In this document: positions 38,056 through 62,127 of the stretch, in pieces
Layout of the letters: every line of letters begins with the position of its first letter
Numbering within the stretch: the first letter of the stretch is position 1
NCBI RefSeq assembly: GCF_013204795.1
Contig: NZ_JABMKW010000008.1
Location: forward strand, 186,001 to 250,000
Direction: 5' to 3'
DNA from: Pedobacter panaciterrae
Lineage (GTDB): Bacteria > Bacteroidota > Bacteroidia > Sphingobacteriales > Sphingobacteriaceae
Length of the DNA stretch: 64,000 bases
Notes under the pieces: model-generated
Told to the model about the DNA's origin: nothing
The model's input: only the letters and a program-made list of their open reading frames with translations
Database searches by the model: none
Program-made: the position numbers and the translations under genes

Positions 38056-39384
38056 ATGGACGATTTTTTAGCTGCCCGACTCCAGATGGCCTTCTCTCTT
38101 GGCTTTCACATTGTTTTTGCATGTATTGGTATGGTGATGCCCTTTTTTATGTCAGTAGCTCATTTTTACTGGCTAAAAACAAAAAAGGTTGTCTATAAGG
38201 ACGTTACAAAAGCCTGGAGCAAGGGTGTTGCAATATTTTTTGCAACGGGAGCAGTTTCGGGAACGGTATTATCTTTTGAACTAGGACTCCTGTGGCCAAC
38301 ATTTATGGAGCACGCAGGTCCTATATTTGGAATGCCGTTTTCTTTAGAGGGGACGGCATTTTTTATTGAAGCGATAGCCCTTGGGTTTTATTTATATGGA
38401 TGGGACAAGTTAAATCCGTGGTTTCACTGGGTGACTGGTGTTGTTGTAGGAATAAGTGGGTTATTGTCAGGAATTCTTGTGGTTGCTGCAAATGCCTGGA
38501 TGAACAGCCCCGCCGGTTTTGACTTTGTGGATGGTAAGTATTTAGACATAGATCCTATAAAGGCAATGTTTAATGATGCCTGGTTTTCTCAGGCGCTCCA
38601 TATGTCGGTTGCTGCATTTGTATCTACCGGATTTGCCGTAGCAGGTGTACACGCCCTGATGATTCTTAGAGGGAGAAATGTGCTCTTTCACAGTAAAGCT
38701 TTTAAAATAGCAGCAGTATTTGGAACAGTTGCAGCTTGCTTGCAACCTATCAGTGGTGATATTTCTGCTAAGGATGTTGCTCATCGCCAGCCGGCAAAAC
38801 TCGCAGCTATGGAGGCTCATTTTCATACAGAAAGAAATGCGCCATTAATTATTGGAGGAATACCAGACACAGCGAATAAAAGAGTTGATTACGCAATTAA
38901 AATTCCTGGTCTGCTTAGTTTTATGACTACAGGGAACTTTAATGGGGAAGTTAAAGGTCTCGACGTGATCCCAAAAGAAGACCAACCTCCGGTAGCGGTA
39001 ACACATTATGCCTTTCAGATTATGGTTGGACTTGGAATGGCAATGGTGTTCATTGCTTTATTGTACTTTATAGCCCTTTGGAAAAAGAGACAATGGCTTA
39101 ATAGTAACTGGCTATTAAAGCTTTTTATAATTGCAACTCCTATGGGATTTATAGCTTTGGAGGCAGGGTGGACGGTAACAGAGGTTGGACGACAACCCTG
39201 GATTATCTACGGTGTTATGCGGACTGTAGATGCTGCAACGCCAATGCCTGGAATTGCTTATTCCTTCTATCTCTTTACTGGTGTATACATTTCGTTGGCA
39301 ATTATAGTGAGTTTATTGCTGTACCGTCAGATTACGATGGTTGGTAAATTATATGATTCTACTTCCAAACTACCTAAAAATTAA
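38056..39384 (+). CDS. cydA: Cytochrome bd quinol oxidase subunit I
   Basis: Catalytic subunit of the cytochrome bd oxidase, 442 residues, the short-Q-loop type. It oxidises menaquinol or ubiquinol at the inner membrane and reduces oxygen to water. The first heme-ligand His is at 18 (SLGFHIVFACIG), a second at about 181 (QALHMSVAAF), and the Met ligand is in GVMRTVDAATPMPG; the conserved Glu cluster is in LEGTAFFIEAIALG. The PAKLAAMEAHFHTE block of the quinol loop and the GRQPWIIYGV motif are present. High-affinity oxidases of this type serve at low oxygen. It is cotranscribed with cydB, 4 bases apart. Confidence 0.95.
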   Translation: MDDFLAARLQMAFSLGFHIVFACIGMVMPFFMSVAHFYWLKTKKVVYKDVTKAWSKGVAIFFATGAVSGTVLSFELGLLWPTFMEHAGPIFGMPFSLEGTAFFIEAIALGFYLYGWDKLNPWFHWVTGVVVGISGLLSGILVVAANAWMNSPAGFDFVDGKYLDIDPIKAMFNDAWFSQALHMSVAAFVSTGFAVAGVHALMILRGRNVLFHSKAFKIAAVFGTVAACLQPISGDISAKDVAHRQPAKLAAMEAHFHTERNAPLIIGGIPDTANKRVDYAIKIPGLLSFMTTGNFNGEVKGLDVIPKEDQPPVAVTHYAFQIMVGLGMAMVFIALLYFIALWKKRQWLNSNWLLKLFIIATPMGFIALEAGWTVTEVGRQPWIIYGVMRTVDAATPMPGIAYSFYLFTGVYISLAIIVSLLLYRQITMVGKLYDSTSKLPKN

Positions 39385-39388
39385 TATT

Positions 39389-40405
39389 ATGATCTATGTT
39401 GTTATTGTTTTCCTGTGGACATCAATTCTATTATATATCCTATTAGGTGGTGCAGATTTTGGAGCGGGAATTATAGAATTGTTTACCTCCAAAGGTAATC
39501 GATCCAAAACGCGTAAAACTATGTATGAAGCTATTGGCCCTATATGGGAAGCAAATCATATGTGGTTAATTATTGCTATTGTTATCCTTTTTGTTGGGTT
39601 CCCTAAAATTTATACTACAGTTTCAATCTATCTGCATATTCCATTAGTATGTATGTTACTTGGCATTATTGCCCGTGGAACTGCCTTCGTATTTAGAAAC
39701 TATGATGCCGTTAAGGATGATATGCAAAAAGTATATACCCCAATTTTTATTTATTCAAGCTTAATCACCCCATTTTTCCTTGGAATAATTGCTGCCAGTT
39801 CCGTATCAGGTCAAATAGATGTTCAGGCACAAGATTTTCTTTCAGCCTATGTTTTTAGCTGGCTAAACTGGTTCTCTGTTTCGGTTGGGGTATTTACAGT
39901 TAGTATATGTGGTTTTTTGGCCACTATTTTTATCATAGGGCAGGCGGCTGACGATGACAGAAGCTTCTTTATCGGAAAAGCAAGGCGAACAATCTATACG
40001 GTTATGTTTTGTGGAGCACTAGTTTTTGTTGCTGCTTATCATGAAAACATCCCATTAGCAAGTTGGATTTTTGGAGACACTTTGGGTTTGACCGCCATTA
40101 TTGCTGCAAGTATTTCATTGATTATTATGTTTTTCTTACTTCAGCGGAAGAAGCCTATATTGCTTCGTTTACTTGCAGGATTTCAGGTTGCTATGATCTT
40201 ATTTGCTGCCACATACAGCCATTTTCCAGACATCGTACTCCTTAAAAATGGGGCTAATTTATCGTTACTTACCCATCAGGGACAAGCAAAGGCGATAGAT
40301 ACATTAGGCTACGCCTTATTGATTGGCAGTATATTTATTCTGCCCGCCCTGGGTTATCTGATCTACATATTTCAACAAAAAAAGGAAGTACAGGAAGCCC
40401 ATTAA
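39389..40405 (+). CDS. cydB: Cytochrome bd quinol oxidase subunit II
   Basis: Membrane subunit of 338 residues, partner of CydA. I use the ATG at 39389, the frame being open further upstream to an ATG at 39341 inside cydA; the 4-base gap to the cydA stop fits coupled translation. Diagnostic blocks are ILLYILLGGADFGAGIIELFT (proton-channel region), IGPIWEANHMWLIIAIVILFVGFPKIY (helix 2-3), and YVFSWLNWFSVSVGVFTVSICGF. Eight helices are predicted. No small CydX subunit is evident after the gene. Confidence 0.95.
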   Translation: MIYVVIVFLWTSILLYILLGGADFGAGIIELFTSKGNRSKTRKTMYEAIGPIWEANHMWLIIAIVILFVGFPKIYTTVSIYLHIPLVCMLLGIIARGTAFVFRNYDAVKDDMQKVYTPIFIYSSLITPFFLGIIAASSVSGQIDVQAQDFLSAYVFSWLNWFSVSVGVFTVSICGFLATIFIIGQAADDDRSFFIGKARRTIYTVMFCGALVFVAAYHENIPLASWIFGDTLGLTAIIAASISLIIMFFLLQRKKPILLRLLAGFQVAMILFAATYSHFPDIVLLKNGANLSLLTHQGQAKAIDTLGYALLIGSIFILPALGYLIYIFQQKKEVQEAH

Positions 40406-44318: not shown

Positions 44319-47234
44319 ATGAGGAAAACTCTACTAATCATCCTAATTCTATATTGTTTTACCCATTTTGAAGGTCTGGGCCAAATTGGCACACCTCAAA
44401 TACTTAACTATAATAATGACCAGTATAAAGCCGGAATGCAGAATTGGGATATTGCTCAAGACAAGAACGGTATTTTATATTTTGGCAATAATGAAGGTTT
44501 ACTGAGGTTTGATGGCAGGTTCTGGAATCTTATTAAATTGCCAAATTTTACTTCTGTAAGATCTGTTGAAATAGATTCGAAAGATAGGATCTTTATTGGG
44601 GGACAGGATGAAGCCGGATATTTTTATCCAGAGAAAAATGGAATATTGAAATATCATTCAATTATCCCTCTCATCCCCGAAAAATACCGAAGTTTTGCCG
44701 ATATATGGAATGTTGCTATTATAGATGATGCAGTAGTTTTCAGAACAACCAGCGTTATTCTTTATTATAAAGATGGGGTTGTAAAAACCTATAAACCAGA
44801 TATAGAATGGCAATTTGCAGGTAAGAGTAATCATCAGTTTTTTGCTCATTCTAAAGGGCATGGATTAATGATTTATGACGGTGAGATCTGGAAACCATAT
44901 TGTTCAGATCCAGTGTTGCTAAAATCTGCGGTGACTTCCATAATAGAATACAATAAAGACACCATGCTGGTCGCCACGTTAAAAAATGGACTTTTTTTAA
45001 TGCACAACGGAAAACTTACACCTAAACCAACAGCCCTGGATCAGATATTTTATAACGACAGGATTTATGGTGCTGATAGGATAGACAGTAATAAGTACGT
45101 AATTGGAACTACCTCTGCAGGGGTTCTAATTATTAACAAACAGGGGAAGGTTTTACAAAAATATACCTATAAGGATGGTTTACAGAATAACAATGTAAGA
45201 GGCTTTATTACTGATAGGAGCAAAAACCTTTGGTTAGCACTGAATGATGGGATTGATTATGTTGCCATTAACAGCGCAGTAAAAAGCATATTTCCTGATA
45301 AGAATAAACAGATAACAAGCTATGCTATACGTAATTTCAATGGGAAATTATATATCGGAACATCTAATGGCTTATATGTAACAGAAATTGAAGATGGTAT
45401 TGCTGATTTAAGTTTGTCGACCAAAGCATTTACGGAAGTTAAAAACTCTAAAGGGCAGGTCTGGAATCTTAGCGAAATCAACAACAAACTTTTAATGGGG
45501 CATGAGGATGGCTTTTTTGAAATTGAAAATGATGTTGCCCATCAAATATATAATCGGCCGGGAACATGGTTGTTTGAACCAACTTCAGAGGTTTATCCTT
45601 CACAGGATATTATAGCTGGCACCTATCTGGGTCTTCAGAAAATAAGTTATAGAAATGGAAGTTTTACCAATCAGGGCAAAATTGAAGGGCGTACAGAATC
45701 CTTAAGGTTTATCGCATTTGATGTCAACAATAATTTATGGGCATCGCATCCATATCACGGGGTATATAAAATTGAATTGTCTGAAGATTTTAAAAGAATA
45801 AAAAAATATACCATCTATACAGATAAGCAAGGGCTGCCTTCACATTTGTATAATTACATTTTTAAAATAAAGAATCGGGTTGTGGTCGCAACTAAAAATG
45901 GTGTATATGAATATGATGCGGCAAAAGATAATTTTAAGCCTTTTGTCTTACTTAGCGAAGCATTAAAGCGAATGCGAATCCAATATCTTAAAGAAGATTC
46001 TAAAGGAAACTTATGGTTTGTCTCAGATAAAAAAGTTGGAATATTAGATTTTGGACATCCAACAACTACAAAATCATTTACAATACATTATTTTCCTCAG
46101 CTAGATGGTAAAATAGTTGGTGGATTTGAGTCTATTTATTATCTGAATGATGAGAATGTTTTTATAGGTGCCAATAAGGGTGCTTATCATTTAAATTATG
46201 CCAAGTATTTGGAGAATATCCCAAAACCAAATGTTTTACTAGGTACAGTAAAGCTTTTTGGTAAAAAGGATAGTACAATCTTTGGTGGTTATTTCCTGAA
46301 TAAAGATAAAATGGTAAAAACTCAGGATTTATCCTCTGTTTTAAAACTTGCGAATGTGTACAGTTCTCTTCATTTTGAATATTCATCTACACTATTTGAG
46401 CATCAGGCAAATATTGAATTCGGTTATCAACTTGTTGGCTTTGATAAAGAATGGTCGTCCTGGACGCAAAAAAGTGAAAAAGATTATACTAACCTCCCTG
46501 CCGGGAAGTATACATTTAATGTTAGAGCCAGAAATAGTTTTGGCAACGAGTCTGAAGTTGTGGGGTATACTTTTGAAATTTTGCCTGCCTGGTATCAAAC
46601 GATATGGATGTATATGTTCTATGTATTGCTCCTGGGCGTAATTATCTATATGTTCTTTAAGTGGCAAAAGAAGAAACATATCAAAGCCCAGACCAGATTA
46701 AGCTATCTTCATCAGCTTGAAATGGATCGTAGCGAAAAAGAAATCGTCCGTTTAGAATACGAAAAACTGGAAGCCGATGTAAATTATAAAAATAGAGAGC
46801 TATCTAATATGACTATGCATCTGGTCCAGAGAGGCAAGGTGCTGGCTAAAATAAAAGAGGTGATTTCTGCTGTAATTAAAAATCACGATATCAACGACAG
46901 TTCCCCCAGCTTCCGACACTTGATCCGACTCATAAGAGATGTTGAAAAGAGTGATCAGGACTGGGAAAACTTCTCAATCCATTTTAATACTGTTAATACT
47001 AATTTCTTTAATAAGCTAAAAGATCAGTTTCCGGAGCTCACACCTAATGAGCTTAAATTATGTGCTTATCTTAAAATGAACCTTTCTACCAAGGAAATTG
47101 CTCAGCTCATGAACATTACAATAAAAGCAGTGGAGGTAGGAAGGTATCGGTTAAGGAAGAAACTACATATTCAGCCTGAAACTAATCTATATGATTTCCT
47201 TATCCAGATATCAAGAACTGCTGAGGGCTCCTGA
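44319..47234 (+). CDS. Y_Y_Y-domain transmembrane regulator with LuxR-type HTH
   Basis: A 971-residue one-component regulator spanning the inner membrane. A signal/anchor begins the protein, followed by two seven-bladed propellers of Reg_prop type (repeats like NWDIAQDKNGILYFGNNEGLLRFDG), a Y_Y_Y domain (about 684-755, FGYQLVGFDKEWSSWTQ... YTNLPAGKYTFNVRARN), one helix (about 762-781), a coiled coil and a C-terminal LuxR/GerE helix-turn-helix (about 905-965, LTPNELKLCAYLKMNLSTKEIAQLM). It looks like the sensor half of hybrid two-component systems but has no kinase or receiver. It lies immediately upstream of susC and probably activates the locus when a glycan binds outside. Confidence 0.9.
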   Translation: MRKTLLIILILYCFTHFEGLGQIGTPQILNYNNDQYKAGMQNWDIAQDKNGILYFGNNEGLLRFDGRFWNLIKLPNFTSVRSVEIDSKDRIFIGGQDEAGYFYPEKNGILKYHSIIPLIPEKYRSFADIWNVAIIDDAVVFRTTSVILYYKDGVVKTYKPDIEWQFAGKSNHQFFAHSKGHGLMIYDGEIWKPYCSDPVLLKSAVTSIIEYNKDTMLVATLKNGLFLMHNGKLTPKPTALDQIFYNDRIYGADRIDSNKYVIGTTSAGVLIINKQGKVLQKYTYKDGLQNNNVRGFITDRSKNLWLALNDGIDYVAINSAVKSIFPDKNKQITSYAIRNFNGKLYIGTSNGLYVTEIEDGIADLSLSTKAFTEVKNSKGQVWNLSEINNKLLMGHEDGFFEIENDVAHQIYNRPGTWLFEPTSEVYPSQDIIAGTYLGLQKISYRNGSFTNQGKIEGRTESLRFIAFDVNNNLWASHPYHGVYKIELSEDFKRIKKYTIYTDKQGLPSHLYNYIFKIKNRVVVATKNGVYEYDAAKDNFKPFVLLSEALKRMRIQYLKEDSKGNLWFVSDKKVGILDFGHPTTTKSFTIHYFPQLDGKIVGGFESIYYLNDENVFIGANKGAYHLNYAKYLENIPKPNVLLGTVKLFGKKDSTIFGGYFLNKDKMVKTQDLSSVLKLANVYSSLHFEYSSTLFEHQANIEFGYQLVGFDKEWSSWTQKSEKDYTNLPAGKYTFNVRARNSFGNESEVVGYTFEILPAWYQTIWMYMFYVLLLGVIIYMFFKWQKKKHIKAQTRLSYLHQLEMDRSEKEIVRLEYEKLEADVNYKNRELSNMTMHLVQRGKVLAKIKEVISAVIKNHDINDSSPSFRHLIRLIRDVEKSDQDWENFSIHFNTVNTNFFNKLKDQFPELTPNELKLCAYLKMNLSTKEIAQLMNITIKAVEVGRYRLRKKLHIQPETNLYDFLIQISRTAEGS

Positions 47235-47453: not shown

Positions 47454-50400
47454 ATGAAAAGAAGTCTTACACTTATTTTCTTCGTTTGCTGTCTTCTTAT
47501 GTCCCCATTTGCCTCAATGGCACAGGAAGTAACAGCAACGGGTAAGGTAACAGACAAGAGCGATGGAAAACCATTGCCAGGAGTTACCATAACATTACAA
47601 GGCACCACAAAAGCAACGCTCACAGACGCCAGCGGAAATTTTAGGATCGCGGTTCCCTCTGCAGGGTCAAAACTAATCATCAGCCAATTGGGGATGGTTT
47701 CACAAACAATAACCGTAACTAATAGCTCCTCTGTTAACATTGCATTAGAGACAGACGTTACTGCATTGGGAGAGGTAGTAGTAGTAGGTTATGGAACTCA
47801 GAAAAAGAGTAACGTTACTGGGTCAATTTCAAGTGTAAAAGCTAAGGACCTGGAAAGCATGCCGATAAATAGGGTCGAACAGGCTTTACAGGGCAGAACT
47901 TCCGGAGTAACCATAGCAACAAATAACGGGCAACCGGGAAGTGCAGCCACGGTAAGGATTAGGGGGTATACTACCTTTGCAAAAGATGGTAACAACAATC
48001 CTCTATGGGTGGTTGACGGAGTGATTGTAGATAATGGAGGTATTGGATACCTAAATCAATCTGATATTGAATCTATAGAAGTTTTAAAAGATGCAGCATC
48101 GCAAGCTATTTATGGAGCCCGTGCTGCAAATGGTGTTATCATAGTAACTACTAAGCGAGGTAAATCCGGACTTCTTCAAATTAACTATAATGGATTTTAC
48201 GGTACTTCTGCAGCTGCAAAAACTTTGGATCTGTTAAATGCATCGGAGTATGCTACACTTAGAAATGAAGCGGCAAAAAATACAGACCCTAATGCAACTT
48301 TACCATTTGCGAATCCCGCAGCATTAGGCAAGGGAACCGATTGGCAGGATATCATATTTAACAATGATGCGAGGAGACAAACCCATGAATTTAGTATCGC
48401 AGGCGGCGGAGAGAAATCTACATTTTATTCATCTTTCGGATACATAAAGCAGGAAGGTATAGTTGCAAGTCCGATTTCAAAATGGAACAGAGCGAATATT
48501 CGTTTAAATTCTACTCATAAGCTTGCAAAATGGTTAACTGTTGGAGAGAATTTAGGATATAGCCATTCTGTAAATAGCAGCTTAGGTAATACAAATAATG
48601 AATTTGGAGGGCCTTTGAGTTCTGCTATTGGTTTAGATCCAACCACTCCGGCGATTGAAACCAACCCGGATCTTATTTCAAAACCACCATATACAACACC
48701 AAATGTTTTAAGAGATAAAAGTGGAAACCCATTTGGATTATCACCTTGGGTTGGCCAGGAATTAATTAATCCCCTTGCTTATATTCAAACAAAACTTGGG
48801 AATTATGGCTGGGATCATAACATAATTGGAAATGCGTTTGCAGAACTACAGCCTATTAAAGATTTAGTTTTTAGATCAACGTTAGGAACCAAGATTGCAT
48901 TTTATGGCGATGATGCATTTAATCCGGTTGCCTATTTAAACTCATCCAATATCAGAACTAAAAACTCATTTGTACGTAATTGGAACAATGTTTTGAATTA
49001 CAATTTTGAAAACACGTTGAGTTATTCAAAAACGTTTGGAAAGCATAATGCGAATATTATAGTTGGTCAGGGAATTTATCTTGATGAAAATGTCAAAACT
49101 TTAAATGTAACATTCAACAATATTATTGCAAATAACTTTGAAGAAGCAAATTTAAATTATAAACCAGTTAGTGCAGACAGAACTGCAGATGGAAACGATG
49201 GGACAGTTCATAAAGTTAACTCTTTATTTTCTCGTATATCTTATAATTATGACGAAAAATACCTCTTTACCGGTATTATCAGAAGAGATGGTTCATCGCG
49301 TTTTGGTGATAACAATAAGTTCGGATACTTCCCTTCATTTTCATTAGGATGGGTGCCTACCAAAGAGAATTTCTGGAAGGAAAATAACGTTATAAATTTC
49401 TTTAAAATCCGTGGGGGTTACGGTGTAACAGGTAATGATCAAATTTCCAATTTTGCTTACAATGCCCTGGTTTCAAGTGGACGGAACTATACTTTTGGAA
49501 CTACAGATGTCAGCTCAATAGGATGGAGCCCGGCAGCCCCTTCTAATCCGGATTTGAAATGGGAAGAAACCCGCCAGACAACATTAGGTTTTGATGCCAC
49601 TATATTCACCAACTTTACTTTGGCCTTTGACGTTTATAAAAAGAAAACAGTTGGAGTACTTCAGTATCCAACACCCCCAAGCTATCTAGGTGTAGCTGGA
49701 GCCCCAGCCCAAAACATTGGAGATATGGAAAATAAGGGTTTGGAACTTGAACTTGGATATCGTAAAACATTCGGAGAATTTAACCTTGGCGTAAATGGAA
49801 ATGTTTCCTTCTTAAAAAACAAAGTAACTAAACTTGCCACAGGTAAATTATTTATTGAAGATGAAGCCCAAAGCTTTCAGGGTATGGGCAATATTACCCG
49901 AACAGGAATAGGGCACTCTTTCAATGAATTCTATGGTTACGAAACACTTGGCATTTTTCAAAATCAAGCGGAAATTGATAGTTATGTCGGACCAGGGGGA
50001 ACTAAGCTGCAGCCTAATGCAAAACCCGGAGATGTTAAGTTCGCGAATTTAAATGGCGATAATCAGATTGAGGCAGCAGATAGGACATATCTGGGAAGCC
50101 CGATTCCAAAATATACTTATGGCCTAACAATAAATATGGCCTATAAGAACTTTGATTTTGTAGTGTTTGGAAGTGGAGCAGGTGGCAATATGATATTTCA
50201 AGGCTTACGTCGTTTAGATGTAACATTTGCTAACTGGCAAACTGACATCCTAAATCGTTGGACGCCTACAAATCCTTCGACTACCATACCAAGAGTTGTT
50301 GAAAAGGACGACAACAAAAACAACACTAATTTCACAAGAAGATATCTTGAAAAAGGAGATTATTTCAGATTAAAAACATTACAGCTTGGATATAACATTC

Positions 50401-50585
50401 CTAAAAATGTAATTCAAAAAATTGGTGCGCAAAAAGTACGTGTTTATGTAATGAGTGAAAACCTTTTTACCATAACTAAGTACACAGGGTATGATCCTGA
50501 AATTGGAGGAACTGTATTTGGAGTTGATAAAGGAATCTATCCGCAGGCACGTTCGTTTATGGTTGGATTAAATGTTGGATTTTAA
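47454..50585 (+). CDS. susC: SusC-like TonB-linked outer-membrane receptor
   Basis: TonB-dependent glycan transporter, 1043 residues. Signal (LIFFVCCLLMSPFASMAQ), then a carboxypeptidase-like domain (about 28-105, ATGKVTDKSDGKPLPGVTITL), the linker GEVVVVGYGTQKKSNVTGSIS, a plug (about 118-225) with NPLWVVDGVIVDN, and a 22-stranded barrel ending in ARSFMVGLNVGF. There is no STN domain, so the receptor does not signal through FecR; the Y_Y_Y regulator ahead probably controls it. The SusD gene begins 11 bases later. It imports oligosaccharides released by the enzymes of the locus. Confidence 0.95.
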   Translation: MKRSLTLIFFVCCLLMSPFASMAQEVTATGKVTDKSDGKPLPGVTITLQGTTKATLTDASGNFRIAVPSAGSKLIISQLGMVSQTITVTNSSSVNIALETDVTALGEVVVVGYGTQKKSNVTGSISSVKAKDLESMPINRVEQALQGRTSGVTIATNNGQPGSAATVRIRGYTTFAKDGNNNPLWVVDGVIVDNGGIGYLNQSDIESIEVLKDAASQAIYGARAANGVIIVTTKRGKSGLLQINYNGFYGTSAAAKTLDLLNASEYATLRNEAAKNTDPNATLPFANPAALGKGTDWQDIIFNNDARRQTHEFSIAGGGEKSTFYSSFGYIKQEGIVASPISKWNRANIRLNSTHKLAKWLTVGENLGYSHSVNSSLGNTNNEFGGPLSSAIGLDPTTPAIETNPDLISKPPYTTPNVLRDKSGNPFGLSPWVGQELINPLAYIQTKLGNYGWDHNIIGNAFAELQPIKDLVFRSTLGTKIAFYGDDAFNPVAYLNSSNIRTKNSFVRNWNNVLNYNFENTLSYSKTFGKHNANIIVGQGIYLDENVKTLNVTFNNIIANNFEEANLNYKPVSADRTADGNDGTVHKVNSLFSRISYNYDEKYLFTGIIRRDGSSRFGDNNKFGYFPSFSLGWVPTKENFWKENNVINFFKIRGGYGVTGNDQISNFAYNALVSSGRNYTFGTTDVSSIGWSPAAPSNPDLKWEETRQTTLGFDATIFTNFTLAFDVYKKKTVGVLQYPTPPSYLGVAGAPAQNIGDMENKGLELELGYRKTFGEFNLGVNGNVSFLKNKVTKLATGKLFIEDEAQSFQGMGNITRTGIGHSFNEFYGYETLGIFQNQAEIDSYVGPGGTKLQPNAKPGDVKFANLNGDNQIEAADRTYLGSPIPKYTYGLTINMAYKNFDFVVFGSGAGGNMIFQGLRRLDVTFANWQTDILNRWTPTNPSTTIPRVVEKDDNKNNTNFTRRYLEKGDYFRLKTLQLGYNIPKNVIQKIGAQKVRVYVMSENLFTITKYTGYDPEIGGTVFGVDKGIYPQARSFMVGLNVGF

Positions 50586-50596
50586 TAAACATCAAA

Positions 50597-52132
50597 ATGA
50601 AAAATAAATTAACATATATAGCTGCTCTTTTTATTGGAGCGCAATTCATGGGATCATGTAAAAAGGATCTGGATGTAAATCCCAGAGAAAGAATACTTGA
50701 ATCTAATTATTATAAAACTCCTGAACAGGCTTTTAGTAGTTTGATCTCGGTGTATGATCAATTTGGAAACCAGTCTGGTGGCTATTTAACCAAGCTAAAT
50801 ATTTTTTCTTCCGGGTCTGATGATCACTACGCTGGAGGTGATTCCCCATCTGATCTTGGTGATCTGCAGGCAATGAATAACTATACAGTAAGTTCATTAT
50901 CCGGAGCACCAAGTTATCTGTGGGGTAAAGGCTTTACCGGGGTTTATAGGGCCAATATATTTTTACAAAAGGTAGAGGAGATTCAAATGGATGCCAGTAC
51001 CAAAAACAGATATATTGCAGAAGCAAAAGCTTTAAGAGCTATCTTTTATTTCGACCTGGTTCGGATATTTAAGAACATACCCCTTATTTTAAAACCCGTT
51101 GAAACGAGTGATTGGTATAATGTCCTACAGGTTCCTCCTGCCGATGTATACAAACAAATTGAATTGGATTTAAAAGAAGCTATCCCCAATCTTCCGTTAA
51201 CGGTTCCAAGAAACACTGAAGGTGGAAGGTTAACCCAGGGAGCGGCTCATGCAGTACTCGGTAAGGTATACCTTTGGCAGGAAAAATTTGCTGATGCCGC
51301 TACTGAATTTGCAGATGTAAACGGTCCTTCGCCCGGTACTACGCCTAGTAAATATGGTTATGTGCTAATGAGCAAGTTTGAGGACTTGTATAAACTCGCT
51401 AATAAATTCAATTCCGAATCCATTCTTGAGATTTCCTATAACAGCACTTCAAATATGGGCTGGGGTAATGTTGGTAGTGGCGAAGGTAATGTAGCTGGGA
51501 TTATGTCGGGCCCTCGGAACTACAATATTCTAATTCCTGACAAAGCTCCGGATTATGTTTCCGGATGGAGTGTTATGCCATTTACTAAAGAGTTCTTTGC
51601 ACTCATTCACTTCGATCCTCGTAATAAACCAACAGTTGCAAATTTAGATAGTCTTGAAAAGGCCGGTATTGTAACTTATAAACACGCCAACGATAATACT
51701 GGTTATTTTGTTGAAAAGTATGCTGGCAGAGTATCCACCAAAGCCAATAGCGGACAGCTTGAACTTAACTTCCCTTATAATCTTTATGAAATACGTTTGG
51801 CCGACACTTACTTAATGGAAGCTGAAGCTGTATTGAAAAGTGGAGGAGCTGTTGGAGCAGGAAGCAGAGCTTATGCTGCTTTAAATGCAGTAAGAGCCAG
51901 AGTTGGATTGAAACCAGTGGACGTTACCATGGATAATATAATAAAAGAAAGACGTATTGAACTAGCAGCTGAAGGACAGCGCTGGTTTGATCTTGTGCGT
52001 TGGGGACTTGCACCTGCTAAACTAGCCTTTAAAGGTTTTGTGGCCGGAAAAAATGAAACATTACCTATTCCAAATGGTGAACTAAATAATACAAAGATAG
52101 TTCAGAGTAAAGAGTGGGGTGGTACTAAATAA
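50597..52132 (+). CDS. susD: SusD/RagB-like outer-membrane lipoprotein
   Basis: Surface glycan-binding lid of the SusC receptor, 511 residues. Lipoprotein signal LFIGAQFMGSC. N-terminal SusD region: ILESNYYKTPEQAFSSLISVYDQFGN, TPR-like helices (RYIAEAKALRAIFYFDLVRIFKNIPLI), and C-terminal RagB block (RLADTYLMEAEAVLKSGG, IIKERRIELAAEGQRWFDLVRWGLA). Aromatic residues that would form the glycan platform cannot be identified by eye. It is followed by a strong hairpin and then the GH30 gene. Confidence 0.95.
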   Translation: MKNKLTYIAALFIGAQFMGSCKKDLDVNPRERILESNYYKTPEQAFSSLISVYDQFGNQSGGYLTKLNIFSSGSDDHYAGGDSPSDLGDLQAMNNYTVSSLSGAPSYLWGKGFTGVYRANIFLQKVEEIQMDASTKNRYIAEAKALRAIFYFDLVRIFKNIPLILKPVETSDWYNVLQVPPADVYKQIELDLKEAIPNLPLTVPRNTEGGRLTQGAAHAVLGKVYLWQEKFADAATEFADVNGPSPGTTPSKYGYVLMSKFEDLYKLANKFNSESILEISYNSTSNMGWGNVGSGEGNVAGIMSGPRNYNILIPDKAPDYVSGWSVMPFTKEFFALIHFDPRNKPTVANLDSLEKAGIVTYKHANDNTGYFVEKYAGRVSTKANSGQLELNFPYNLYEIRLADTYLMEAEAVLKSGGAVGAGSRAYAALNAVRARVGLKPVDVTMDNIIKERRIELAAEGQRWFDLVRWGLAPAKLAFKGFVAGKNETLPIPNGELNNTKIVQSKEWGGTK

Positions 52133-52137
52133 TGCGC

Positions 52138-52176
52138 TAAGAGGTGGATAAGACATCCACCTCTTATTTCTGTTTT
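52138..52176 (+). terminator. Hairpin after susD (terminator or attenuator)
   Basis: Arms TAAGAGGTGGAT (52138-52149) and ATCCACCTCTTA (52155-52166) pair perfectly around AAGAC and run into TTTCTGTTTTC. It begins 6 bases after the susD stop, and would lower expression of the enzyme genes relative to susCD. Confidence 0.65.
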
Positions 52177-52199: not shown

Positions 52200-53603
52200 A
52201 TGAGATCAAAAAAGCTCAGTTCAATTCTAGGGCTGGTTATTACATTTGTTTCATTTGTCGCAAATGCTCAAAATGATGTGAGCCTATGGCTTACAAAAGC
52301 AGATAAATCAGTTCTATTTACCAAACAGAAAAGAATATTGAAATTTGCGGGCATAAAAAATAACAATCCAACCATTGTAGTTGATGAGAAAGAGCCTTTC
52401 CAATCAATTGATGGTTTTGGCTATGCGTTAACTGGAGGAAGCGCCCAACATCTCATTAAAATGAGCCCTAAAGCAAGGGCAGCTTTGTTAAAGGAATTAT
52501 TTGCTACTGATGGTAATAATATTGGGGTTAGCTATATACGACTGACCATCGGTGCCTCAGATCTAAATGAGAAAGTATTTTCATATAATGATTTAGCTGA
52601 GGGAGAAACAGATTTGGAGCAAACCAAATTTGAATTGGGTCCCGATCGAATAGATGTAATTCCCGTAATGAAAGAAATACTTTCTATCAATCCAAATATC
52701 AAAATAATGGGGTCGCCCTGGTCGCCACCGCTATGGATGAAAACATCTTATGATGCAAGAGGGGGGATGTTAAAACCTGAATTTTATGAAGCTTATGCAA
52801 AATACTTTGTCAGGTATATTCAGGATATGGGCAAAGAAGGAATTCATATAGATGCTGTTACTATTCAAAATGAACCACTTCATCCTGGCAATAACCCAAG
52901 CCTGCTGATGGTGGCACCTGACCAGGCAATCTTTATTAAGAATAACCTTGGACCCGCTTTCCAGAAAGCCGGTTTAAAGACAAAGATTATTATATATGAC
53001 CATAATGCGGATCGTCCTGATTATCCAATTACGATTCTAAATGATCCTGATGCCAGGAAATATATTGATGGGTCTGCTTTTCATCTTTACGGTGGAGAAA
53101 TTGAGGCATTAACAGATGTGCACAATGCCTATCCTGACAAGAATATTTATTTTACAGAACAAATGGTTATTGAAGATCCAAACGAAAATAGGATCAACAT
53201 TTTATCACCAATTAAAAGACTCATTATAGGAGCTACCAGAAACTGGAGCAGAAATGTTTTAGAATGGAATTTAGCAGCAGATCCTGAAAATAAACCTTTT
53301 ACGGATAGAGGAGGATGCCCGATGTGCCAAGGCGCAGTTACGATAGATGAAGATAAAGTAACAAGGAACCTAGCCTATTATTCGATAGCGCATGCATCTA
53401 AATTTGTTCGCCCTGGTTCTCTGCGAATTGCTTCCAGCGAGCCCAAAGAGCTTTCTAATGTTGCATTTAAAACTCCTGACGGAAAAAAAGTACTAATAGT
53501 TGCCAATAGTGGAAAGAATGCACAAACATTTAATATTAGCTTTAATGGTAAATTACTAAGCGATACGATTGACAATGGTGATGTTGCAACCTATATCTGG
53601 TAA
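52200..53603 (+). CDS. GH30 family glycoside hydrolase
   Basis: Secreted retaining glycosidase of 467 residues, signal peptide LGLVITFVSFVANAQ. The (beta/alpha)8 barrel opens with the FQSIDGFGYALTGGSA block (residues 67-82). The acid/base is Glu225 in TIQNEPLHPGNNPS and the nucleophile Glu320 in IYFTEQM; the side beta-domain follows after 420. The sequence style resembles the GH30_3 subfamily, whose known members are endo- or exo-beta-1,6-glucanases, but that assignment is from memory and needs testing. It lies 67 bases after susD, behind the hairpin, and 48 bases ahead of the GH5 gene. Confidence 0.88.
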   Translation: MRSKKLSSILGLVITFVSFVANAQNDVSLWLTKADKSVLFTKQKRILKFAGIKNNNPTIVVDEKEPFQSIDGFGYALTGGSAQHLIKMSPKARAALLKELFATDGNNIGVSYIRLTIGASDLNEKVFSYNDLAEGETDLEQTKFELGPDRIDVIPVMKEILSINPNIKIMGSPWSPPLWMKTSYDARGGMLKPEFYEAYAKYFVRYIQDMGKEGIHIDAVTIQNEPLHPGNNPSLLMVAPDQAIFIKNNLGPAFQKAGLKTKIIIYDHNADRPDYPITILNDPDARKYIDGSAFHLYGGEIEALTDVHNAYPDKNIYFTEQMVIEDPNENRINILSPIKRLIIGATRNWSRNVLEWNLAADPENKPFTDRGGCPMCQGAVTIDEDKVTRNLAYYSIAHASKFVRPGSLRIASSEPKELSNVAFKTPDGKKVLIVANSGKNAQTFNISFNGKLLSDTIDNGDVATYIW

Positions 53604-53651: not shown

Positions 53652-55421
53652 ATGTTTCAAAAATTAACATTAGTCAGGCTATTTTTTATAATAGCGGTAT
53701 CTGTTTTGTATTCCACGTCTGGGTTGGCACAGGGCTTTTTAAGGGCAGATGGAAAGAAGATTGTAAATGAAAAGGGCGAGAATGTATTATTAAGAGGAGT
53801 TGGTCTTGGGGGATGGATGCTCCAGGAGGGTTACATGTTAAAAATAAATAAAGAAGGTCAGCAATATCGTATTCGGGAAAGAATTGAAGAGTTAATGGGG
53901 GCGAAACAAACCCAGGAATTTTATGATCTGTGGCTTGCCAATCATACCAGAAAGATTGATGTAGATTCAATGAAAGCATGGGGCTTTAACTCAATCAGGT
54001 TACCAATGCATTATAACCTTTATACATTACCTATTGAAAAAGAATCTGTGAAGGGACAAAATACCTGGCTAGACAAGGGATTTGCGATGACAGACTCTTT
54101 ACTTTCATGGTGCAAGGCAAATCAGATGTATTTAATTTTGGATCTTCATGCAGCACCTGGCGGACAGGGAAATGATTTAAATATTTCAGATCGAGACCCT
54201 TCAAAACCGTCACTATGGGATAGTCCTGCTAATCAGGAAAAAACGATAGCTTTATGGAGGAAGTTAGCAGAGCGATATGTCAATGAACCCTGGATTGGAG
54301 CATATGATATCATAAACGAACCTAACTGGGGATTTGAGGACCTTGCAAAAGACAAGAATGGAATAAATGAAAAAAAGAATGAGCTATTAAAGAAATTAAT
54401 GGTTGATATCACAAAAGCAATAAGAGAGGTTGATAAAAAACACATTATTATAATTGAAGGTAATGGCTGGGGAAATAATTATAATGGCATTCTTCCTCCT
54501 TGGGACAATAATATGGTTCTAAGCTTTCATAAATACTGGAGCTATAATGATCAGGCATCGGCGGAAAATATGATCAAGACAAGAGATCAGTATAATATTC
54601 CTATTTGGTTAGGTGAGACAGGAGAGAATTCAAATGTTTGGTTTACCGAGGCCATTCGCTTATTTGAAACTAATAATATTGGTTGGGCATGGTGGCCACT
54701 AAAGAAAGTTGGGGCCAACAATCCAATGGAAATAAAATCTAACCTGAACTATAATGATGTTGTAAGTTATATAAATGGAAATGGAAATAAACCTAAAGAA
54801 AGTAATGTTTATAGTGGTTTAATGGAGCTTGCTACTTACGCAAGACTTGAAAATACAATTATCCATTATGATGTAATTGACGCAATGATCCGTCAGCCTT
54901 TTTCTGCAGAAACCAAGCCATTTAAAAAGCATATTATTGGAAAAACTACTACTGTGAATGGAGTTGATTACGATTTGGGCAGAAACGGCGCTGCCTATTT
55001 TGATAAAGACACGGCAGACTATCACGTCTCTACCGGAAAATATACTGCAGGAAACAAAGGAAGAATTTATAGAAATGATGGGGTGGATATTGCAAAAGAC
55101 AGTACCAAATATGAATCTTATTACGTTAATAATATTGAATCAGGAGAGTGGCTTCAGTATACTGTTGATGTAGAAAAAAAAGGAATATATACTATTAAAT
55201 TAAATGTTGCTTCAGATAATACGAAGGGAAGGATTTCTTTAGCTTCTGACGGAGCCTTAATCGCAAAAGAAATCACGGTATCCAACACAGGCGGATTAAC
55301 AACTTTTAAAACAATAGAAATAAAGAATATTCCACTCAAAGCAGGGAAACAAAGTATAAAGGTTTTGGCAGATACAGGTTATTTTAATTTTAATTACCTT
55401 CAATTTATTAGACAAATGTAA
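53652..55421 (+). CDS. GH5 endoglycanase with C-terminal CBM6-like domain
   Basis: Secreted 589-residue enzyme, signal peptide FFIIAVSVLYSTSGLAQ. The GH5 barrel (about 30-400) has the block RGVGLGGWMLQEGYML, the acid/base Glu223 in DIINEPNWG, the nucleophile Glu322 in IWLGETGEN and conserved HAAPGGQ. After a linker, residues about 455-589 form a CBM6-type beta-sandwich (GEWLQYTVDVEKKGIYTIKLNVAS, LKAGKQSIKVLADTGYFNFNYLQF), which binds glycan chain ends. GH5 covers beta-1,4, -1,3 and -1,6 glucanases and others; the substrate is unproven. It is followed by the cytochrome gene 14 bases later, so it is part of the same operon. Confidence 0.9.
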   Translation: MFQKLTLVRLFFIIAVSVLYSTSGLAQGFLRADGKKIVNEKGENVLLRGVGLGGWMLQEGYMLKINKEGQQYRIRERIEELMGAKQTQEFYDLWLANHTRKIDVDSMKAWGFNSIRLPMHYNLYTLPIEKESVKGQNTWLDKGFAMTDSLLSWCKANQMYLILDLHAAPGGQGNDLNISDRDPSKPSLWDSPANQEKTIALWRKLAERYVNEPWIGAYDIINEPNWGFEDLAKDKNGINEKKNELLKKLMVDITKAIREVDKKHIIIIEGNGWGNNYNGILPPWDNNMVLSFHKYWSYNDQASAENMIKTRDQYNIPIWLGETGENSNVWFTEAIRLFETNNIGWAWWPLKKVGANNPMEIKSNLNYNDVVSYINGNGNKPKESNVYSGLMELATYARLENTIIHYDVIDAMIRQPFSAETKPFKKHIIGKTTTVNGVDYDLGRNGAAYFDKDTADYHVSTGKYTAGNKGRIYRNDGVDIAKDSTKYESYYVNNIESGEWLQYTVDVEKKGIYTIKLNVASDNTKGRISLASDGALIAKEITVSNTGGLTTFKTIEIKNIPLKAGKQSIKVLADTGYFNFNYLQFIRQM

Positions 55422-55435
55422 TTGCAAATTAAATT

Positions 55436-56605
55436 ATGAAGCGTAAAGGACGTTTACTCCTTGTGTTCAGTACTATAGCTATTTTGGTGATTCTATTCTC
55501 CCAATGTATGGATACCTCCAAAAATATGAAAGCAACAGAAACATCCATTGCAGGTGCAAAAACATGTGTCCAATGTCATAAAGATATTTCCAATTCTTAT
55601 TTAAATGATGTTCATTATGCTGCTTCAAGCCCGGTAGAGAATAATAATCAGATCAAACTTGGTACTGATTACGTTTATGAGTATGATAAAAACTTAAAAG
55701 TTGCCATAGAAAAAAGAGATAGTGGTACCTATCAGGTTGTTTATTTTAATGGAAAAGAAGATCTGGCTAAAAGATTTGATATTGCTATTGGGGCAGGTAA
55801 AAATGCTTATACCTATGCCTCATGGAGAGGGAATATATTAAGACAACTTCCACTCTCTTTTTTTAATCAAATAAATGGATGGGCTAACAGTCCGGGTCTG
55901 CGAACAAGCAGCCCGGATTTTGGAAGGATAATAGACTCACGATGCTTAGAATGTCATAGCTCCTTTATAGAAAGTAACAAGGCAAATAATGGCAGTTTAA
56001 TTGTTTCTCACGAAATGTTGAAATCTTCTCTTGTTTATGGAATTGATTGTGAGCGCTGCCATGGGCCAGCAGGTAAACATGTTGAATTCCATTTAAAAAA
56101 TCCTGATGAGAAGGAAGCTAAATTTATGGTGCTTTATAAAACACTTACAAGGAAACAAAGAGTTGATGCATGTGGCATTTGTCATTCCGGTAATGATGCA
56201 GAGTTACTGAAATCTACATTTTCTTTTAAGCCAGGAGAAGATATTAAACAATATTACGCGCATGTTTCATCGGCTCAGGAATCCCAACTCGATGTTCACG
56301 GCCAGCAAAACCAGATGCTTGAGGCGAGTAAATGTTTTACTAAAAGTAATTCGCTCGAATGTTCAACGTGCCATAGCCCGCATGATCAGAACAAAGGAAG
56401 CTTAACATTGTATTCAAAAAAATGTATAAGTTGTCATGCTACCATAAAGCATACACAGAAAACATTGGAAAACGCTATGGTAAAAACCAATTGTATTGAT
56501 TGCCATATGCCTTTAAAACCTTCCAAGGCAATTAGCTTTCAACAGGCCGGCATGTCAGACGTAAGTCCGTATATGCTCAGGTCACACCGTATAGCAATAT
56601 ATTAA
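55436..56605 (+). CDS. Seven-heme c-type cytochrome, periplasmic
   Basis: A 389-residue exported protein with hydrophobic anchor or signal (LLLVFSTIAILVILFSQC). Seven CxxCH heme motifs are present: CVQCH (44), CLECH (170), CERCH (205), CGICH (246), CSTCH (309), CISCH (330) and CIDCH (353). The pattern resembles multiheme cytochrome c554-like proteins. It starts 14 bases after the GH5 gene, so it is likely expressed with the glycan enzymes. Its redox partner is not obvious; no lytic polysaccharide monooxygenase is visible. Whether it serves glycan oxidation or only shares a transcript is unknown. Confidence 0.87.
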   Translation: MKRKGRLLLVFSTIAILVILFSQCMDTSKNMKATETSIAGAKTCVQCHKDISNSYLNDVHYAASSPVENNNQIKLGTDYVYEYDKNLKVAIEKRDSGTYQVVYFNGKEDLAKRFDIAIGAGKNAYTYASWRGNILRQLPLSFFNQINGWANSPGLRTSSPDFGRIIDSRCLECHSSFIESNKANNGSLIVSHEMLKSSLVYGIDCERCHGPAGKHVEFHLKNPDEKEAKFMVLYKTLTRKQRVDACGICHSGNDAELLKSTFSFKPGEDIKQYYAHVSSAQESQLDVHGQQNQMLEASKCFTKSNSLECSTCHSPHDQNKGSLTLYSKKCISCHATIKHTQKTLENAMVKTNCIDCHMPLKPSKAISFQQAGMSDVSPYMLRSHRIAIY

Positions 56606-56671: not shown

Positions 56672-57253
56672 ATGGATTACAGGCTCTTATCTGATGACGA
56701 ATTAATTGTTCTTTTCAAAGGAAGTTGCCAGCATGCGTTTAAGGAGATGTATTTGCGGTACTGGCAAAAGGTATATCAGGTTGCTTATAAGAAAGTACAC
56801 CATAAAGAGCTTGCCGAAGAGTTAACCCAAAATCTCTTTGTGGAACTATGGAGACGAAGAGAAACAGTAACAATAAATTCATTAGGGGCTTATCTTTTCG
56901 GGAGTTTAAAATATTGTATCATCAATCATTACAAATCATTATTGGTTCAGGAAAACTATCACAATTATGTAAAGGCTTCTGCGAATTATGGGGTAGTAAA
57001 CAATACCGATTATCTATTGATGCTTAATGAACTCTCTGACGCACTTGCCAGAGGGATTGCACTGCTTCCCAAAAAAACTGCCGAGGTATTCAGAATGAGC
57101 CGAATTGAACACCGCTCGGTTAAAGATATATCTGAGCAGCTTCATATATCCGAAAAAGCAGTTGAATATCACATTACCCAATCGCTTAAATCAATTCGGT
57201 TTTACCTTAAAGAGTACCTGTTTCTATTGGTTGCTTTTATTATGTTTCTATAA
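56672..57253 (+). CDS. ECF sigma factor (sigma-70 family, FecI-like)
   Basis: An extracytoplasmic-function sigma factor of 193 residues. Region 2 (about 10-80) has YLRYWQKVYQVAYKKVHHKELAEELTQNLFVELWRRR, and region 4 (about 125-180) has LPKKTAEVFRMSRIEHRSVKDISEQLHISEKAVEYHITQSLKSI with the HTH. It is typical of the large Bacteroidota FecI family controlling glycan loci. The C-terminal end, YLFLLVAFIMFL, is strongly hydrophobic, which suggests membrane contact. The FecR anti-sigma gene starts 72 bases later. Confidence 0.95.
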   Translation: MDYRLLSDDELIVLFKGSCQHAFKEMYLRYWQKVYQVAYKKVHHKELAEELTQNLFVELWRRRETVTINSLGAYLFGSLKYCIINHYKSLLVQENYHNYVKASANYGVVNNTDYLLMLNELSDALARGIALLPKKTAEVFRMSRIEHRSVKDISEQLHISEKAVEYHITQSLKSIRFYLKEYLFLLVAFIMFL

Positions 57254-57325
57254 GTTTCATTTTTTTTTAAAATTATTTTAGGGATAAGGGCTACTTAGCT
57301 TACATATAGTTTAAAAGCTATAAAA

Positions 57326-58378
57326 ATGAGCAGAGAAGCATTTCATCTATTACTGGAAAGATACCTGCAGAACAGGTGTACAGATGAAGAAAAGGAAATT
57401 ATCGAAAAATGGTATGGAATGCTTGATAAGCATGATATGGAAGATATTGCCCCAACCCAAATAAATGCATTGGAGCAGAAACTGTGGGACAGAATACATG
57501 AAAGTGCCATCACAGAAGATGAAACTCCTGTTCGTAAACTTAAACCTCAGCGCCAAACATCCAGAACTTTAATAACTGCTGTTGCTGCCGTAATTGCAGG
57601 CTTTGTAATTATTACCGCCTATGTATTCTTTAGAGTTGACAGTAAAAAACCTGAATTCATGGTTGCCTCAATTGCAAACAATATTAATTCTGTTTCAAAT
57701 AATACTGCTATGCCCATGGTAGTAAATTTGGAAGACGGAAGTTCTGTTACCCTGCAACCAAAATCTTTATTGAAGTACCCTAAACATTTTTCCAAAACTG
57801 TTCGTGAAGTCACACTTGAGGGAGAAGGCTTTTTTGAGATCAGTAAAAACCCATCCAAACCATTCCTTGTATACAACAGCAATGTAATTACAAGAGTTGT
57901 AGGAACCAGCTTTATCGTAAAAACAAATAGTACAGCAAGCGAAACTGAAGTAACAGTTAAAACAGGAAAAGTAATTGTTTCTCCAAACTCCGGGACCCTT
58001 TCCTTTAAAATTGGTGACCTCTTAAAATCAGGCAAAGGGGTGATACTTACCCCAAATCAGAAAACTGTTTATAGTGCCTCCGAAAATACATTTGCAACCA
58101 CACTTGTTGATAAACCTTTACCGATAGCAAAAAATAATAAGCAACCTATAAAAGAGAGCTATTCTTTCAATGACAGCCGTGTTGCCGATGTCCTAAATCA
58201 GCTTCAAAAATCATATGGGATTGAATTTGTTGTGGAAGACAAAGAATTGTACAACTATACATTTACGGGCGACCTCTCTGAACAAGATTTATACAGTCAG
58301 TTAGATTTTCTATGTGAATCAATTCAGGCAACCTATCAGGTAAAAGAGACTAAAATAATTATCAAAGAAAAAAATTAA
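57326..58378 (+). CDS. FecR family anti-sigma factor
   Basis: A 350-residue membrane protein. Residues 1-70 are the cytosolic sigma-binding part, one helix (about 85-107, TLITAVAAVIAGFVIITAYVFF) crosses the membrane, and the periplasmic FecR domain (about 130-235, VVNLEDGSSVTLQPKSLLKYPKHF... EVTLEGEGFFEIS) is followed by the DUF4974 domain (about 270-350, ESYSFNDSRVADVLNQLQKSYGI). It would hold the sigma factor until the STN domain of its SusC partner signals that glycan is present. Confidence 0.94.
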   Translation: MSREAFHLLLERYLQNRCTDEEKEIIEKWYGMLDKHDMEDIAPTQINALEQKLWDRIHESAITEDETPVRKLKPQRQTSRTLITAVAAVIAGFVIITAYVFFRVDSKKPEFMVASIANNINSVSNNTAMPMVVNLEDGSSVTLQPKSLLKYPKHFSKTVREVTLEGEGFFEISKNPSKPFLVYNSNVITRVVGTSFIVKTNSTASETEVTVKTGKVIVSPNSGTLSFKIGDLLKSGKGVILTPNQKTVYSASENTFATTLVDKPLPIAKNNKQPIKESYSFNDSRVADVLNQLQKSYGIEFVVEDKELYNYTFTGDLSEQDLYSQLDFLCESIQATYQVKETKIIIKEKN

Positions 58379-58543
58379 AACCTAAAAATCAACCAGAACT
58401 AAAAACCTAACCAAACCAGCTTATGAAGAAAAGAGAATTTTACTAACCAAATGATAAAAAAAAAACTGACAATGTTGCGGGACATTGCCAGTTAAAAATT
58501 CTGTACGAAAAGTTTCATATTAACGAACAAAACTCCTAAAGTT
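58379..58543 (+). promoter_or_regulatory. Leader of the second susC: tiny frame and hairpin
   Basis: This 165-base gap has a short frame MKKREFY (58423-58446), whose first residues resemble those of the SusC protein after it. The hairpin AACTGACAATGT/AACTGGCAATGT-type arms lies at 58464-58493 with loop TGCGGG and one mismatch. A poly-A run precedes it, so it reads as a T-tract on the minus strand. A role as attenuator of susC is possible; the tiny frame may be chance. Confidence 0.35.
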
Positions 58544-61500
58544 ATGAAAAAAAAGCGATTTGTTGCTTTAATAAAAACAGCAATGAGGATATCTATAGCC
58601 CAAATATTTCTTGTAGTTCTATTCACATGTGGCGCAGCGGCAAAAAATGCTGGCGCTCAGGGAATATTGAATAAAGAAATTTCCATCAGCATTAATGATG
58701 CTAAGGTAACCGAGATATTAAATGAAATTCAAAACCAAACAAAAGTTAAATTTATTTATAGTCCATCGGTAATTAAGTCTGAGCGAAAAACATCAGCAAA
58801 CTATACCAAAAAACGGCTTGGAGACATCCTTGACGAGACATTAAATCCACTAAGTATCTTCTATAAGGTAATTGATAACAGAATTATTCTGTACGAAAAA
58901 GATATGTCTAAGAAGACTAATGAGCCAAATACCAATAAGCCCCCTGTTCCACTCAAAGGTAAGGTAACTTCAACAAAAGGAGAAACATTACCCGGGGTAA
59001 GTGTAAAAGTAAAAGGTACTACAACAGCTACTATTACAGATATAAATGGAAATTTTGCCATTAGTGTGCCTGATGCTAATGCTGTTTTGGTTTTTTCTTA
59101 TATCGGTTTTACGTCAAAAGAAGTTCCGGTTAATGGCCAGAGCACTTTAAATGTTCAGCTTGTCGAAGAAGAAACTTCATTAGGTGAAGTTGTTGTTCTG
59201 GGATACTCGACACAAAAGAAAAAGGACCTTACCGGGGCCGTTTCTGTGGTGAATGTTGCCGACATGATTAAACAACCCAGCCCATCCATAAATAATCTGT
59301 TGCAAGGACAGGCCTCTGGGGTTACCATTTTGGGTTCGGGACAACCTGGAGAAGAGCCTCAGGTGCGTATCAGGGGAGTAAATACTTTTGGCAATAACAA
59401 CCCACTTTACGTGGTTGATGGTGTTCCAACGCTCAATGTAGCCGATATTAATCCGAATGATATAGAATCGATGCAGGTGTTAAAAGATGCAGGATCAGCT
59501 TCAATTTACGGATCACGTGCGGCAAATGGAGTTATTGTAATCAGTACTAAAAAAGGTAAGGATAAAGTAAAGGTACAATATGATGCTTATTATGGTACAC
59601 AGCGACCTAAAACAGGAAACGTTTGGAATATTTTGTCGCCACAGGAGATGGCAAATCTGAAAAGACTTGCTGAAGCAAATACTGGAGAAACTGAATTTGA
59701 TGATCCACTATATGGAAATGGTCCAACCTATGTATTGCCCGATTATATCTATCCACTAGGGGCTAAAGAGGGAGATCCATCTGTAAACCCATCCTTATAT
59801 AATGTAAAACCGTTATTTACTTCTGATGAAGAGTATAATAACTTTTACAGAATTAATAGAGCAAACAAAGCAGGAACGAACTGGTATGATGAAATATTTA
59901 ACCCGGCACCAATAACCAGTCAGAACATCTCTGTAAGTGGCGGTTCAGATCAGGGGAGTTATCTTTTCTCTGCAAATTATTTCAATCAGAAAGGAACATT
60001 GGATAGAACTTATCTAAAAAGATATACAGTGCGTTCTAATACTCAATATAACATTGGAAAATATGTCAGGGTTGGAGAGAACTTAGCTTATACCATTACA
60101 AATAATCCTAAAATAGACGGGCTTAGTGGTGACAATGCTATAGGGCATGCTTTTAGAGAGCAACCTATTATCCCTGTATATGATATTATGGGGAATTTCG
60201 CAGGTGGTTATGGTGGGAAATTAGGCGATGCCTATAATCCGGTAGCCATGCTGTATCGTACTAAAGATAATAAGGCAACAGACAACAGGTTATTTGGAAA
60301 TATCTTTGCAGAGGCAGATATTTTGCCTTTTTTAACACTTAGAACTGCATTTGGTGCCGATTCATTTTCAGGCGCATCCAGATCATTTGTTTTTCCTCAA
60401 TATGAAAATGCAGAGAATACAACTAGTAACAGTTATGCCGAATCTTCAAATACTGGATTAGAATACACCTGGACAAATACCTTATCATTTAACAAAACTT
60501 TTAACCTGCATAGTTTAAAGGTATTGGTAGGAACTGAGTACAACAAGAACCGGTATAGCACCATGAGCGGAAGTAACAAAGGCTATTTCTCATTTGATCC
60601 CGATTATACAAACCTTTCGAATGGTAGCGGCCCAATGGAAACTGTTAGTGAAAGAACTGCTGATGCTTTGTTCTCACTAATAGGGCGTGTTGATTATGCA
60701 TTTAATGACAAATATCTTATCGGAGCTACTATCCGTAGAGATGGTTCATCTAAATTCCTGAAAAACACATATGGAGTTTTTCCCGCAGTAAGTGGTGCCT
60801 GGAGGATCTCAAAAGAAAGCTTTTTATCTGATGTGAAATGGATTACGGATCTAAAAATAAGAGGTGGCTGGGGTATTATGGGTAACCAGGTAAATGTTTC
60901 CGGTGCCAACTCCTTTACAACATTTGGTAGTTCAATTGGCCAGTCTTATTATGCAATAGGTGGCGGAAATGCTGTAGTTGCAGGATTCTTTCAAAATCAA
61001 ACCGGAAATCCGGATGCAAAATGGGAGAAAAATGTAAACTCAAACTTTGGTTTTGATGCAACATTATTTGGTGGCGGTATAGAGATCTCTGCTGATTATT
61101 ACCAGAAAAATGTTCGTGATCTTTTGTACAATCCAGAAATGATTGGAACTGTTGGTGCTGCTACTGTGCCATTTGTTAACATAGCTCAAATGAAAAATGA
61201 TGGGTTCGATATTTCGTTAACAGGACATAAAGATGTAGGAAGCGATCTTAAACTTAATGCCACTGCAACAATTACCACCTACCGTAACGAGATAAAAAAA
61301 GTATCTGGAGATGTAGATTATTACGATGTAGATTCAAGAAGATTTGATGGTAGTCGTATTATTCGTAATGCTGTAGGACACTCGGTTAGTGAATTCTTTG
61401 GTTATAAAATAGCCGGATTCTGGAATTCAGACAATGAAATTGAAGCTGCAAATACAAAAGCTCAAGCTGTTACCGGTGATCCAAATACTGTTTATCAGGA

Positions 61501-62107: not shown

Positions 62108-62127
62108 TTACCTAACGGTTTAAGGAA

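Follow-up and report, generated by a model that had tools for sequence, protein, structure and literature searches.

Polysaccharide utilisation loci (PULs) have so far been described as sets of hydrolases, binding proteins, transporters and regulators. One such locus, the 1,6-beta-glucan PUL of Bacteroides thetaiotaomicron (BT3309-BT3314), combines a regulator, a SusC/SusD pair (SusCD) and a glycoside hydrolase (GH) of subfamily GH30_3, and the word 'cytochrome' does not occur in the main text of its description (PMC5481569). We analysed a stretch of 64,000 nucleotides of the Pedobacter panaciterrae genome (contig NZ_JABMKW010000008.1, positions 186,001 to 250,000; hereafter the window, whose numbering is used throughout), in which a comparable SusC-SusD-GH30-GH5 locus ends with a gene for a heptahaem c-type cytochrome (55436..56605, + strand). 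A c-type cytochrome domain serving polysaccharide degradation is also found in Cbp2D/Cbp2E of Cellvibrio japonicus; these proteins, however, bear CBM2 modules and have a lytic polysaccharide monooxygenase (LPMO) as partner, and no heptahaem SusCD-linked protein is described in the accessible part of PMC12542752. The cytochrome with the best match to ours, OcwA of Thermincola potens (PDB 6i5b), is a nonahaem reductase on the surface of a Gram-positive cell wall, and no glycan locus is mentioned in the accessible part of PMC6703420. For the pairing of a cytochrome with a PUL, no description was found in the literature searched, whose coverage leaves out most subscription papers.

The original prediction, made from the letters of the window, had placed seven CxxCH motifs in a gene starting 14 bases past GH5 in a glycan locus, and open reading frames and Pfam matches confirmed this: the spacing between the GH5 stop and the cytochrome ATG is 14 nt, and the motifs of the 389-residue protein start at residues 44, 170, 205, 246, 309, 330 and 353. 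The gene is the sole match within its own genome, and its product is 97% identical to the cytochrome of Pedobacter sp. V48. Relatives were obtained from a scan of a species-genome collection (53 loci), from 399 genomes of the family (match at 1e-20 in 148) and from 395 genomes of the phylum (match at 1e-30 in 54, relatives of about 700 residues included). The set of 131 loci used below consists of 51 of the 53 loci, L052 and L053 being outside the length or score filters, and of 80 further loci of 15-19 kb picked by us from the family and phylum match lists. Seven CxxCH motifs are present in 130/131 relatives, the exception being a fragment of 202 residues with five (L036), and their number is thus more than chance.

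The protein belongs to the c554/NrfA/MccA/OcwA multihaem superfamily, since it combines the seven CxxCH motifs with a Cytochrome_C554 match above the Pfam cut-off (PF13435, 27.8 bits versus 20.8), a profile match to OcwA with an E-value of 9.9e-12 and a structural match to OcwA with a Z-score of 17.1. Paired_CXXCH_1 was also above its cut-off, among several multihaem families; the NCBIfam decahaem models DmsE (44.8 versus 192.2) and GSU2203 (52.6 versus 325) were below theirs. The profile search of the PDB further retrieved MccA (2.4e-7) and cytochrome c554 (2.9e-5). An AlphaFold2 model based on a 40-sequence alignment had a mean predicted local distance difference test score (pLDDT) of 83.1 and a predicted template modelling score (pTM) of 0.79; its features include an N-terminal helix (residues 2-28) and a beta-rich insert at about 61-165. 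Foldseek alone gave a single clear match for this model, 6qvm; in a second look by structure alignment, OcwA (290 residues, root-mean-square deviation 3.5) was followed by 6qvm (Z 13.1), MccA (9.6), NrfA (6.6) and c554 (4.8). Many unrelated folds also aligned to residues 75-114 with Z of about 4-5; such arrangements are common, and these matches were disregarded. Cytochrome c554 of Nitrosomonas (PDB 1bvb/1ft6) has four haems, and its haem motifs 1-4 align partly with those of our protein, but it comes from an ammonia-oxidiser context and its Z-score is low. MccA sulfite reductase and NrfA nitrite reductase share the superfamily fold; in contrast to them, the cytochrome has no CxxCK motif of the kind that binds the catalytic haem of NrfA, all seven being CxxCH, and PF02335 was found neither in the protein nor in its genome.

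In the alignment with OcwA, haems 1-4 and 6-8 of the latter correspond to haems 1-7 here, and OcwA haems 5 and 9 are without counterpart. The haem ligands were compared in 127 of the 131 relatives, L036, L050, L051 and L054 being omitted. The histidines of the seven haem motifs and His60, His215, His288, His316 and His384 are invariant in 127/127; position 339 is a histidine in 109/127, with some histidine in that segment in 124/127. By this comparison, the probable distal histidines number six for seven haems, and no invariant histidine is left for one haem, which is probably without a sixth ligand of this type and predicted to be open. Haem 2 is the candidate, because haems 2 and 5 are the open ones in OcwA, haem 2 lacking a sixth ligand (PMC6703420), and OcwA haem 5 has no counterpart in our protein. 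Cys300 is not part of any haem motif; it is conserved without exception in the 127 core relatives and in 23 larger ones of about 700 residues and is a possible haem ligand or site residue. In 21 of these 23, the position of His60 is occupied by methionine.

At the N-terminus, the hydrophobic helix contains a conserved cysteine, Cys24 (55505-55507), which is preceded by glutamine. This is not the small residue (S/A/G) typical of a Bacteroidota lipobox: the position holds glutamine or arginine in 65 of the 74 relatives in PUL runs, compared to S/A/G in 74/78 SusD homologues. The pattern argues for an uncleaved membrane anchor or an odd lipoprotein.

A survey of the gene neighbours revealed that the linkage with SusCD loci is conserved, so that a lack of conservation, named in the original prediction as a ground for rejecting it, does not apply. 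SusD is found in the same-strand run of the cytochrome in 74/131 loci and nearby in 11 more. Some species are present in both locus sets (e.g. L033/L150), hence the counts were also merged by identity: at 95%, 119 clusters comprise 66 with SusD in the run, 11 with SusD near, 2 with hydrolases only and 40 others; at 80%, the respective figures for 82 clusters are 46, 11, 2 and 23. From the 75 SusD matches in the 6.23-Mb genome of P. panaciterrae, we estimate the chance that a random gene lies within six genes of a SusD at about 1 in 6 at most. The gene directly upstream of the cytochrome is GH5 in 27, SusD in 23 and GH30 in 16 of the 131 loci, and the median gap is 21 nt in the 67 loci with SusD, GH5, GH30 or GH16 in this position. 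GH30 is present in the run in 51/131 loci, and the companions elsewhere, GH16, Pfam Glycoamylase (which we take to be GH144-like), GH3 and GH31, keep to a glucan theme; the host SusCD loci are mostly aimed at beta-glucans of the fungal cell-wall type. The tie appears to be to SusCD itself, since 17 loci carry a SusC-SusD-cytochrome run without a recognised hydrolase. In Pedobacter ginsengisoli (L005:10001-12369), a tandem duplicate of the cytochrome stands behind the same kind of locus.

The linkage is also evident from a contrast within Pedobacter, in which 30 cytochrome-positive genomes from among the stronger matches were compared with the 20 negatives listed in the family search. An orthologue of the GH5 was present in 27/30 positives versus 4/20 negatives (Fisher p 7e-7). 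Three of the four in the negatives are long matches at 61-69%, and the fourth is truncated where its contig stops; another four matches, at 37-40%, were counted as other GH5 genes. According to the coordinates, the orthologue lies directly upstream of the cytochrome in 26/27 Pedobacter, the pair being far apart in the remaining genome (G206). A tree, made by a quick method and with several weak forks, requires many changes of context and places linked members both on deep branches of Chitinophagaceae and in Pedobacter and Mucilaginibacter.

In the window, the locus is encoded on the + strand and starts with a Reg_prop/Y_Y_Y protein with a LuxR-type DNA-binding domain (44319..47234; Pfam), the probable regulator. 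It is followed by a SusC/RagA-family TonB-dependent transporter (47454..50585), a SusD-family protein (50597..52132; both by Pfam and NCBIfam), the GH30 (52200..53603; Pfam E 2.7e-43) and, directly 5' of the cytochrome, the GH5 with a C-terminal CBM6/35 (53652..55421; Pfam E 2.5e-30). The nearest NCBIfam model of the GH30 is endo-1,6-beta-glucanase, at 397 bits and hence below the cut-off of 700. A simple scan for terminators detected no such site on this strand between GH5 and cytochrome, and co-transcription of the two is plausible. The same scan pointed to a hairpin in the gap between SusD and GH30 (52138..52166, + strand; 12-pair stem and T-rich tail) which may attenuate transcription ahead of GH30, GH5 and cytochrome, the evidence of the scan being weak with 10 sites observed in the window versus 8.4 expected by shuffling.

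Tentatively, and with somewhat less than even confidence, we favour the reading that the protein is a membrane-anchored, periplasm-facing heptahaem electron-transfer or reductase module, which forms a cassette of the SusCD locus, is co-expressed with glucan uptake and provides an electron outlet. Six of its haems would be bis-histidine-ligated and form an electron path, and haem 2 would keep an open site. Its electron source in the envelope might be the quinol pool or another cytochrome, and the electrons might be handed to an acceptor met during the grazing of glucan, such as a nitrogen oxide, a peroxide, a quinone or a ferric compound. The role would be that of a reductase or electron outlet and not of a partner in glycan cleavage. 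In line with this reading, no sugar dehydrogenase recurs beside the cytochrome among the neighbours annotated, which are those of representatives, and the genome encodes ResB for c-type maturation. The recurrence of a multihaem cytochrome in PULs of both Sphingobacteriaceae and Chitinophagaceae points to a frequent co-regulation of electron transfer and glycan uptake; glucan uptake loci seem to be regularly accompanied by electron transfer, for reasons as yet unexplained. The finding also puts a cytochrome resembling OcwA into bacteria that degrade glycans in soil, and the cytochrome gene is a concrete deletion target for testing this co-regulation.

Several observations weigh against the favoured reading. 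The loci encode no dedicated electron donor or acceptor. NrfA, considered as a partner, was found in none of 51 Pedobacter genomes (the above 50 and that of P. panaciterrae), so that a context of nitrite ammonification is lacking. The family also exists without SusCD, 46/131 loci having none in the run or nearby, and the tie of cytochrome and locus is strong yet not obligatory, because the pair is separated in G206 and the cytochrome is retained in five stretches from which the glucan genes are missing (L006, L008, L219, L220 and L221). The haem ligands are assigned from sequence and homology, the AlphaFold2 model being without haems. Finally, the protein may still be a lipoprotein, the larger relatives mostly having a normal lipobox at the homologous cysteine (A or G in 20/23).

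The retention of the cytochrome where the glucan genes are gone, and the distance between it and the GH5 locus in G206, would fit a redox protein of general function in the envelope, which is carried along with mobile PUL cassettes and has no specific tie to the glycan. Its stand-alone occurrence in eight loci of one genus of another family and in a Pedobacter paralogue clade points in the same direction. However, the linkage recurs on the deep branches of the tree, in varied chromosomal settings and with varied hydrolases, and the cytochrome directly follows SusD in 23 loci; we regard this explanation as somewhat unlikely.

We also judge it unlikely, and slightly more so, that the cytochrome is the acceptor for a periplasmic oxidation of released glucose or glucobiose by an aldose or 3-keto-glycoside dehydrogenase, from which electrons would pass to the respiratory chain. 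Such a supply of the chain from sugar oxidation, which the original prediction had envisaged, found no recurring dehydrogenase to back it. Neighbours in its favour are rare: a gluconolactonase-like (SGL) gene between GH5 and cytochrome in one species, Hufsiella arboris (L033; the protein in L150 is the same at 100%), and a 3-keto-disaccharide hydrolase together with a Cytochrom_C-domain protein downstream in one locus (L171). No dehydrogenase of this type was recognised among the annotated neighbours, not all neighbours being annotated. GMC oxidoreductases occur in 30/30 cytochrome-positive Pedobacter and in P. panaciterrae, but they are about equally common in the negatives (19/20; 50/51 overall) and provide no contrast.

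It is quite improbable, in our view, that beta-glucan SusCD loci possess a redox arm, in which cytochrome and SusCD couple the capture of glycan to the reduction of small molecules or metals in the envelope, with an open haem as the site; its minimal form would be the hydrolase-free cassettes of SusC, SusD and cytochrome. The feeding of electrons to an oxidative, glycan-cleaving enzyme of the LPMO type, the other role put forward in the original prediction and proposed likewise for Cellvibrio Cbp2D/E, where Cbp2D has in its X183 domain a c-type cytochrome that is reported in the accessible part of PMC12542752 to start copper reduction of Lpmo10B, is very improbable, as a search for AA10 (PF03067; other AA families were not searched) in 30 of the 51 Pedobacter genomes found none in P. 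panaciterrae and in 29/30 of those searched, and the odd residue before Cys24 suggests that the cytochrome is not a usual surface lipoprotein.

The genes cydA-cydB for a bd oxidase lie upstream of the locus (38056..40405, + strand), about 15 kb from the cytochrome as the original prediction had it, but they provide weak evidence and were dismissed as a conserved partner. CydB was assigned via Pfam, and the 442-residue CydA, without a model match, via its position and start sequence. The arrangement cydAB-302-OMP occurs in 8/144 stretches, many of which extend only about 10 kb upstream, and all eight (L006, L008, L013, L223-L226 and L228) belong to one Pedobacter clade; elsewhere, locus and cytochrome occur without cydAB, which is thus outside the conserved unit. 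In L006 and L008, cydAB-302-OMP is followed by the cytochrome.

In Chitinophagaceae and in part of the Sphingobacteriaceae (L034, L037, L040, L116, L119, L123, L129 and others), the cytochrome is flanked by proteins with FG-GAP/UnbV and, in some cases, Laminin_G_3 domains. The FG-GAP/UnbV proteins were dismissed as a universal partner, being within six genes in only 16/131 loci and giving no Pfam match in seven scanned neighbours of the larger relatives. The latter, also with seven haem motifs (L195-L212), are in some cases found beside a TonB-dependent receptor and proteins of about 1100 and about 350 residues, mostly without a Pfam match. In the window, a second unit 3' of the cytochrome (56672-63918) encodes an extracytoplasmic function (ECF) sigma factor, an anti-sigma-like protein, SusC and SusD, and in a near-identical stretch (L002) this unit runs on into a GH20 gene.
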